Of a DNA stretch of 54,918 bases, positions 28,075-29,588 are shown in pieces (position 1 is the first letter of the stretch; every line of letters starts with the position of its first letter). The stretch is from Allostellaceae bacterium (lineage in GTDB: Bacteria; Pseudomonadota; Alphaproteobacteria; ATCC43930; CGMCC-115725): the NCBI GenBank assembly GCA_025451725.1, contig JANWJX010000011.1, positions 1 through 54,918 of the forward strand, read 5' to 3'. The position numbers were made by a program, and so were the translations under genes. Under the pieces are notes generated by a model. The model was not told the origin of the DNA. It made no database searches and saw only the letters and a program-made list of their open reading frames with translations.

Positions 28075-29331
28075 TCAGATGCAGTACGTCTTGAGCGGCT
28101 CGAAGCCGTTAAATCCGACGGACGCGTAGGTCGAGGTGTAGGCGCCGGTCGCCATTATCCGCACCCGGTCGCCGACCTTGAGCGCCAGCGGCAGCCGGTA
28201 CTCGGTCTTCTCGTAGAGAATGTCGGCGCTGTCGCAAGTCGGGCCGGCGATAATTACTGCGCTCGTCGGTCCGCCATCGGCGGGCGTCTCAATGCGGTAC
28301 TTGATGCTCTCGTCCATCGTCTCGGCGAGACCGTTGAATTTGCCGACATCGAGATAGACCCAGCGCTTGTTGTCCTTCAGCCCCTTTTCGGCGATCAGGA
28401 CAACTTCGCTTTCGATCACCCCGGCATCGCCGACGATCGACCGGCCCGGCTCGACGATGATCTCGGGCAGATCGTTGCCGAAATGTCGCGTGATCGCGGC
28501 CATCACCGCGTTGCAGTAACGCTCGACGCCCGGGACATCGCCCCGGTAATGCGCCGGGAAGCCGCCGCCGATATTGACCATCTTGAGGTTGATGTCGGCC
28601 TCAGCCAGCAGCGAGAACATCTTGGCGGCGCGGCCGATGGCGTTGTCCCACTGGTCGAGCTTGGTCTGCTGCGACCCGACGTGGAACGAGACGCCGTGCG
28701 GCTCGAGGCCCGCCGCCTTGGCCCGGCGCAAAAGCCCCACCGCCATTTCCGGCGAGCAGCCGAACTTGCGCGACAGCGGCCATTCGGCCCCGTCGCTCTC
28801 GACGAGGATGCGGCAGAAGACCCGCGCGCCGGGGGCGACGCGGGCAAGCTTTTCCAGTTCCGCGGCGCTGTCGAACGCGAACAGGCGCACGCCCTGCCCG
28901 AAGGCATAGGCGATGTCGCGCTCCTTCTTGATCGTGTTGCCGAACGAGATGCGGTCGGCCGCCACGCCGAGATGGAGGCACATATCGATTTCGCCAGGGC
29001 TCGCGACGTCGAAGCTTGATCCCATCTGGTCGAGCATCGCCAGTATCTCACGGGCGGGATTGGCCTTGATGGCGTAGAACACCTTCGCCAGCGGCAGGTA
29101 ATGCCGCAGCATTTTATAGGCGTCCGCCACGACCTCGAGATCGACCACCAAACACGGCGTCGCCGGCTGTTGCTCGGTCAGGAAGCGGACGGTTTTTTCA
29201 CTGATGCCGCCTCGGCGCACCGTACGCTTACGGCGCGGGCGGACGGGGATGTCAGGCGCGGCGGCGGGTGCGCGCGTTCCATCGGCGGGGCCAACGCGCC
29301 CGCCTGCGGAATGCCCGGAAGCTTCCGTCAA
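28075..29331 (-). CDS. Ornithine/lysine decarboxylase-like fold-type III PLP enzyme
   Basis: This is a 418-residue (if started at TTG 29331) eukaryotic-type ODC/DAP-decarboxylase-fold enzyme. The PLP lysine is in KVFYAIKANPAREIL, followed by HVGSQQTKLDQW, VNIGGGFPAHY, the phosphate-binding EPGRSIVGDAG, and the catalytic cysteine region GPTCDSADILYE typical of ornithine (or ornithine/lysine) decarboxylases. It makes putrescine or cadaverine. Homology starts at about SEKTVRFLTEQQPATPCLVVD. The first roughly 40 residues are Pro/Arg-rich, so GTG 29220 could be the real start. A long structured leader with a small ORF precedes it, which suggests polyamine or ornithine control. Confidence 0.87.
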   Translation of the reverse strand: MTEASGHSAGGRVGPADGTRAPAAAPDIPVRPRRKRTVRRGGISEKTVRFLTEQQPATPCLVVDLEVVADAYKMLRHYLPLAKVFYAIKANPAREILAMLDQMGSSFDVASPGEIDMCLHLGVAADRISFGNTIKKERDIAYAFGQGVRLFAFDSAAELEKLARVAPGARVFCRILVESDGAEWPLSRKFGCSPEMAVGLLRRAKAAGLEPHGVSFHVGSQQTKLDQWDNAIGRAAKMFSLLAEADINLKMVNIGGGFPAHYRGDVPGVERYCNAVMAAITRHFGNDLPEIIVEPGRSIVGDAGVIESEVVLIAEKGLKDNKRWVYLDVGKFNGLAETMDESIKYRIETPADGGPTSAVIIAGPTCDSADILYEKTEYRLPLALKVGDRVRIMATGAYTSTYASVGFNGFEPLKTYCI

Positions 29332-29554
29332 CGCCGTTACAGTACAGGTAGGCGGCGACCGCAGCCGCGGACGCCCTGTTGAACCACCACCTCTTTAGAG
29401 GCGTCGTCGTAGGGCATCGCGGCCCTGCGCAGGAACACAACCATATCGACCTCCCTCTCGGGACCGGCCCACAATGACCGGATCTGCCAAAAAGGACGCG
29501 TTACGTCGTTGCATAACCACGATGGGCCATAGGCACGTGCGAGTGCGTCGCGAG
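29332..29554 (-). promoter_or_regulatory. Structured 5' leader of the decarboxylase gene (possible speF-type element)
   Basis: About 220 bases lie between the predicted transcription start (near 29554) and the coding region. Read on the minus strand they contain several hairpins: TCGCG-CCT-CGCGA near its start, an imperfect CCGGTC...GGCCGG, TCCC-GAGA-GGGA overlapping a Shine-Dalgarno, CCTC-TAAA-GAGG, and GCGGC...GCCGC. An RNA motif named speF has been described in front of alphaproteobacterial decarboxylase genes of this family. I cannot confirm a match without a covariance model. Confidence 0.4.
29337..29444 (-). CDS. Candidate leader peptide (35 codons) upstream of the decarboxylase gene
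   Basis: On the minus strand ATG 29444 is preceded at 5 bases by a near-perfect ribosome-binding site GGGAGG (29455-29450). The frame runs 35 codons to TAA (29339-29337) and ends 5 bases before the TTG proposed as the decarboxylase start. The peptide starts MVVFLRRAAMPYDDA and ends CGRRLPVL, with five arginines. The site is partly held in a TCCC-GAGA-GGGA hairpin, and a CCTC-TAAA-GAGG hairpin lies inside the ORF. By analogy with SpeFL in enterobacteria, it could sense ornithine or polyamine through translation. No homologue is known to me, so this is inference from structure. Confidence 0.45.
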   Translation of the reverse strand: MVVFLRRAAMPYDDASKEVVVQQGVRGCGRRLPVL

Positions 29555-29560
29555 GCGCGA

Positions 29561-29588
29561 TAAATAGTCTTTTGCGTTCAGGACGCAA
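29561..29588 (-). promoter_or_regulatory. Probable promoter of the leader-decarboxylase transcript
   Basis: On the minus strand TTGCGT (29588-29583) is followed after 16 bases by TATTTA (29566-29561). The -35 box also forms one arm of a TTGCGT-CCTGA-ACGCAA hairpin. The surroundings are the most AT-rich stretch in this part of the window. Confidence 0.45.

Follow-up and report, generated by a model that had tools for sequence, protein, structure and literature searches.

Locus and leader organization

The window, the whole stretch of 54,918 nt that was analysed, carries on its minus strand an ornithine/lysine-type decarboxylase gene preceded by a promoter, a structured leader and a small open reading frame (ORF; Table 1). 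The decarboxylase (418 amino acids) matches Pfam PF02784 (2.8e-55) and PF00278, and its closest solved structures are the lysine/ornithine decarboxylases 5gjm, 5gjo and 2plj. It is flanked by a hybrid histidine kinase gene upstream and a class A penicillin-binding protein gene downstream. The genome is 61% complete and consists of 70 contigs. Among named records, the relatives of the window are alphaproteobacterial (Rhodospirillales-labelled) metagenome-assembled genomes, with Vineibacter and Reyranella next.

A preliminary description of this DNA had noted a minus-strand promoter-like pair with a 16-nt spacer, a hairpin-rich leader whose Shine-Dalgarno (SD) sequence GGGAGG lies in a hairpin 5 nt before an ATG, and a 35-codon ORF followed, 5 nt past its stop, by a TTG that opens the decarboxylase frame. 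All of these features are present, and the promoter is conserved in aligned relatives. The predicted transcription start lies about 7 to 12 nt past the -10 box and coincides with the 5' end of the RNA element described below, so that the leader would run from about 29549.

Table 1. Positions of promoter, RNA and coding features in the window
Feature	Position	Strand	Basis
-35 box TTGCGT	29583..29588	(-)	Sequence; CTTGC kept in aligned relatives
-10 box TATTTA	29561..29566	(-)	Sequence; promoter conserved in aligned relatives
Conserved RNA element, model R1, 112 nt; 3' end is the AUG of the leader ORF	29438..29549	(-)	R1 143.5 bits; covariation in 93 homologues
P1 5' strand GACGC; partner GCGUC 29499-29495	29545..29549	(-)	5/5 pairs with double changes in homologues
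Core GCAACGACG, 3' strand of P2/P3; also complementary to GUUGU just past the AUG	29504..29512	(-)	P3 pair GC/GU/AU; start-region complementarity suggestive
Box CUUUUUGG (with preceding C), complementary to CCGAGAGGG of the SD hairpin	29487..29494	(-)	Duplex energy; no covariation beyond permutation
P5 hairpin CCGGUC...GGCCGG	29464..29481	(-)	6/6 pairs with double changes
P6 hairpin UCCC-GAGA-GGGA, holding most of the SD sequence GGGAGG (29455-29450)	29452..29463	(-)	4/4 pairs with double changes, 88% of cells paired
Leader ORF, 35 codons, MVVFLRRAAMPYDDASKEVVVQQGVRGCGRRLPVL; ATG 29444, stop TAA at 29337	29337..29444	(-)	Start conserved in family, frame kept, pN/pS
Ornithine/lysine-type decarboxylase, fold type III, putative TTG start	28075..29331	(-)	Pfam, solved relatives, genus comparison

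A conserved RNA upstream of polyamine genes

The 112 nt up to the ATG of the small ORF are 85 to 98% identical between genera, and the DNA on either side diverges. Used as a query in 41 related genomes, the leader was found in 28. The covariance model R1, built on this stretch (window 29549-29438), matches 41 of the 43 genomes of the order, including 25 of 25 complete ones. It also matches at least 58 of 385 sampled alphaproteobacterial genomes, from 29 families, a lower bound because few candidates per genome were scored in the class sample. A phylum-wide sample of 299 gave six R1 matches, all inside the same class.

From 5' to 3', the element consists of P1, a compact core, a U-rich box, P5, the SD hairpin P6 and the AUG, and the core motifs CGCACGUGCC and GCAACGACG are nearly invariant. 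Across an alignment of 93 R1 matches, 95% of cells pair (32 to 50% for slid control structures) and 17 of 23 base pairs show double-sided, compensatory changes (6.7 expected in shuffles), counts that lean toward the model because the alignment was fitted to it. Every pair of P1, P5 and P6 covaries. Judged by these comparisons, the most strongly conserved, covarying object at the locus is the RNA.

We classed the genes downstream of 116 element loci by tblastn of the downstream DNA. The best match was a type A decarboxylase in 74 loci, a type B decarboxylase (about 30% identical to type A) in 23, a homospermidine synthase in 10, SpeD in one (L135) and a glutamine amidotransferase-like gene in one (L093), the last three labels having been given from reading the sequences, not by family search. 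No match was found in seven, six of which end at a contig edge. Homospermidine synthase directly follows the element in five loci (L097, L103, L117, L121 and L122); in the other five it lies 1.4 to 1.7 kb further on, and a type B decarboxylase ORF comes first in at least one of these (L125). The reverse test agreed: of 79 decarboxylase loci retrieved by their protein sequence, 76 have the element upstream. As the downstream genes were read here, the element sits almost only before polyamine genes, namely two decarboxylase types, homospermidine synthase and SpeD.

Some individual loci deserve mention. At L135, the element (501-638) stands before a SpeD-like S-adenosylmethionine decarboxylase gene, named from its sequence. 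The glutamine amidotransferase-like gene at L093 (element 1501-1610) is the sole non-polyamine neighbour seen, and the AUG frame of the element continues into it (294 amino acids). A second subtype (L104-L107, L140, L145, L150 and L152-L156), with a different P1 and a CUUCCC-like box, precedes a type A decarboxylase; its ORF begins AUGUUCGCUGUU or contains GUUGUUGU. Genomes of family f2 hold both subtypes, each on different genes.

An RNA motif named speF was expected here from the preliminary description. The Rfam speF model (RF00518, cut-off 37 bits) gave no match in the region at the gathering threshold or at E ≤ 10, and none of the 43 genomes of the order exceeded its cut-off. The order's lone sub-threshold speF match (L031, 26 bits) belongs to a different locus and was dismissed, as it looks like a GC-rich chance match. 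The whole of Rfam, run on the window at gathering and permissive thresholds, returned chance-level matches alone, and in 13 decarboxylase-fetched loci no family reached its cut-off apart from a neighbouring tRNA. The ar45 model (RF02347, cut-off 40 bits) stayed below its threshold and is absent from the window's matches; in three relatives, the motif UCGCACGUGCC...GCAACGACG scores 22.6 bits.

This family nevertheless provides the connection. At almost every ar45 locus, speF starts about 8 nt later, partly below cut-off, and a decarboxylase 55 to 60% identical to that of the window follows in 20 of 20 orientable Rhizobiales ar45 loci. The adjacency and the following decarboxylase indicate that ar45 and speF together make up what Corbino et al. 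2005 described as the 'extended speF element', with conservation beginning at the transcription start (PMC1273637). The adjacency, as well as separate ar45 expression, has been reported in Bartonella (PMC7717549). Note that at the Rhizobiales-type loci L032-L053, Rfam's ar45 sRNA gene and its separate speF leader are adjoining halves of one decarboxylase leader, which Rfam could merge. R1 finds some of the Rhizobiales loci weakly (E 0.02-0.9) at the same positions, and a bridging sequence (L158) scores 30 bits. Invariant motifs shared in the same order, together with this bridging sequence, argue that the window's element is kin to the 5' domain of the extended speF element. The earlier suggestion that a speF motif is combined with a leader peptide holds in part: the locus joins a folded, speF-related RNA to a leader ORF that is translated, and translation may be coupled at the TTG. 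The RNA does not match Rfam speF itself; its kin would be the other half, ar45, recognized by shared motifs and architecture alone.

The leader ORF and its possible coupling to the decarboxylase

In about 11 loci (for example, L088, L096, L128, L132 and L144), the decarboxylase itself starts at the AUG of the element. Elsewhere, that AUG mostly opens an ORF of about 10 to 59 codons. A small ORF with a ribosome-binding site is not improbable on its own, as the window holds four and shuffled windows about 15. Despite this chance expectation, we take the leader ORF to be real because of its conservation, the conserved promoter, the covariation and the coding-type substitutions; the coding signals in relatives reject a chance ORF.

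These signals come from a comparison of the small ORF in relatives, where its start is conserved in the family and its frame is kept. In the window's family, two genera each give a pN/pS of 0.06 (2.7 in shifted frames for the first of them), and a third group gives 0.39 (1.8 and 1.3 in shifted frames). Across sister groups, in-frame values of 0.06 to 0.39 stand against 1.3 to 2.8 in shifted frames. The signal is weaker in the window genus (0.58 versus 2.25 and 0.84), and in some other groups pN/pS revealed no peptide-level selection on the leader ORF. In close relatives, the leader ORF is, by its substitution pattern, protein-coding.

The ends of the peptides share a further feature. Ser-Ser occurs within the last 14 residues in 92 of 113 distinct peptides of at least 25 residues, compared with 14 expected after shuffling, in peptides that are 30 to 59 residues long and keep their frame. 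Six codons are used for the first serine, and the second is AGU in 85 of the 92. This AGU bias, visible in the leader-ORF ends of L005-L026, L073-L115 and L185-L238, suggests a codon or RNA constraint. The window genus is without the Ser-Ser end, and its peptide closes with CGRRLPVL.

Such a conserved end would be expected if the leader peptide were the sensor, that is, an arrest peptide like SpeFL or TnaC that stalls near its stop on ornithine, arginine or a polyamine, with the RNA serving only as an expression platform. A leader ORF that is coding in several groups fits this reading, as do the precedents of SpeFL and orf34 (PMC6386406). However, the window genus has lost the Ser-Ser end, some groups are without peptide-level selection, and the near-constant AGU codon suggests a constraint on codon or RNA. 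Furthermore, lineages in which the AUG lies directly on the gene have no leader peptide. A search of the window's peptide against solved chains, which should include SpeFL, gave no match at E ≤ 10, although a 35-residue query has little power. We consider it unlikely that the peptide is the sensor. The preliminary description was correct about the gene family and about the existence of the leader ORF, but it picked the wrong half of the known motif and overstated the peptide-sensor analogy.

As for the link between leader ORF and gene, all three species of the genus whose sequence is known retain the TTG 5 nt past the stop. Downstream of it, the genus shows coding-type change (pN/pS 0.43 versus 1.65 and 1.29 in shifted frames) and indels in multiples of three. 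These comparisons support TTG 29331 as the putative start of the decarboxylase, and the kept TTG followed by coding sequence fits coupling or reinitiation in the window genus. The distance from leader ORF to gene ranges from 5 to about 240 nt (roughly 60 to 240 nt in other genera), so coupling cannot be the same everywhere.

A candidate switch on an embedded start codon

Two parts of the element have predicted partners around the start codon. The core GCAACGACG is complementary to the start region (GUUGC/GUUGUU past the AUG), with a mean duplex energy of -6.8 kcal/mol compared with -5.1 kcal/mol for shuffled starts. With all sequences, 0 of 2000 permutations reach the observed core-start covariation; with one sequence per family, P is about 0.01 to 0.17 and not significant in most draws, which makes this pairing suggestive. 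A duplex of the box CCUUUUUGG with CCGAGAGGG around the SD sequence is also predicted (-13.2 kcal/mol in the window; shuffled-box mean of -7.2 over all loci), and a permutation test found no covariation for the box-SD pairing beyond that of permuted data. The minimum free energy of the lone strand (-46 kcal/mol) favours other pairings, such as the box-SD type, over the model fold (-32 kcal/mol).

We regard it as reasonably probable that an orphan cis-acting RNA switch of polyamine genes gates initiation at the embedded AUG, and that translation of the leader peptide is coupled to that of the decarboxylase. An RNA that ends in the start codon of the small ORF probably acts as a switch on polyamine production, and the SD sequence in the covarying P6, together with the core and box pairings with the start region, favours a translational switch. 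The promoter would start an mRNA whose first ~105 nt fold into the conserved RNA ending in the AUG. Both GCAACGACG and CUUUUUGG could pair either inside this fold or with the start codon and SD region, and through these alternatives a signal would change access to the AUG. To judge from gene context alone, that signal would most likely be a polyamine or polyamine status. In the window lineage, the AUG would start the translated leader ORF, and coupling or reinitiation at the TTG would bring ribosomes on to the decarboxylase. The proposal builds on conservation, covariation and gene context, on an ORF that is coding in relatives and on an AUG that elsewhere serves as the decarboxylase start. 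From these we infer the switching, the ligand, the sign of regulation and the coupling.

A more elaborate scheme, which we offer as speculative, is a two-stage sensor. The RNA switch would control whether translation of the leader peptide begins. Expression of the polyamine gene would then depend on a pause at the Ser-Ser(AGU) end, caused either by the nascent chain or by specific codons. Lineages would have kept both stages, kept the RNA only, on the gene's own AUG, or lost the peptide end, as in the window genus.

Regulation might instead act on transcription, with P1 and the U-rich box acting as a terminator, a short RNA being released (like ar45 in Rhizobiales) and the decarboxylase being controlled by read-through. 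Here the separate expression of ar45 and speF in Bartonella, and earlier in S. meliloti (PMC7717549), is pertinent, as is the Rhizobiales P1, which is followed by UUUUUUGG. In the window, however, P1 has only 5 bp and the tract is five U followed by GG, and several homologues have a CUUCCC-like sequence in place of U. Intrinsic terminators between leader ORF and gene were predicted in 19 of 109 loci compared with 17 after shuffling, and this lack of excess rules out a general intrinsic attenuator past the leader ORF. Attenuation as the general mechanism therefore seems distinctly unlikely. The first copy in family f2 differs: in all four genomes (L021, L024, L027 and L028), a covarying hairpin with UUUU or similar begins from the leader-ORF stop, and this is likely an attenuator limited to that group. 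A protein-binding or processing/stability element that involves no metabolite sensing by the RNA is improbable: protein binding would fit near-invariant stretches such as CGCACGUGCC, and S. meliloti ar45 co-precipitates with Hfq (PMC7717549), but restriction to polyamine genes suggests a specific signal, one that a polyamine-responsive protein could still convey.

The element is a new form of an orphan regulatory RNA that is widespread and carries an additional leader-peptide layer. As a candidate riboswitch, the speF leader has been an orphan since 2005, and its neighbour ar45, listed as an 'sRNA', is an orphan as well. Corbino et al. observed no binding of ornithine, lysine, diaminopimelate, putrescine, cadaverine or spermidine by the tumefaciens speF leader (PMC1273637). 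With 29 families in this sample, the 5' domain shared with the extended speF element reaches far beyond its coverage in Rfam. It is a mark of polyamine genes as a class, homospermidine synthase and SpeD among them, and can lie immediately at a start codon. The element thus offers a small, well-defined RNA for ligand tests, and the leader peptides allow RNA-based and peptide-based control of the same enzyme to be compared.

Three known systems are close enough for comparison. As with SpeFL and orf34, the leader upstream of the ornithine decarboxylase gene contains a short ORF that may be coupled to that gene (PMC6386406). In contrast to them, a conserved RNA precedes the window-type ORF; the search of the peptide against solved chains, of little power at this length, gave no match. 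The enzymes also differ in fold, as the window's decarboxylase (PF02784/PF00278) is of fold type III and E. coli SpeF of fold type I. With translational riboswitches that sequester the SD sequence, the element shares a covarying core, an SD sequence in a hairpin and predicted alternative pairings; unlike in a typical one, a small coding ORF often stands between the candidate switch and the gene.

The third system is the extended speF element. Both types lie upstream of a COG0019 decarboxylase and begin where transcription is predicted to start, and both have a P1 stem with a variable apical hairpin, CGCACGUGCC, GCAACGACG, a U-rich box and a CCGG hairpin in the same order. Past the CCGG hairpin, the extended element continues with a speF domain of ~80 nt, whereas the window type has the SD hairpin and the AUG instead. 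The Rhizobiales type has no conserved leader ORF, a candidate ruled out by differing lengths and ends, whereas the window type often has one. Unlike the extended speF element, the window type also precedes homospermidine synthase and SpeD.
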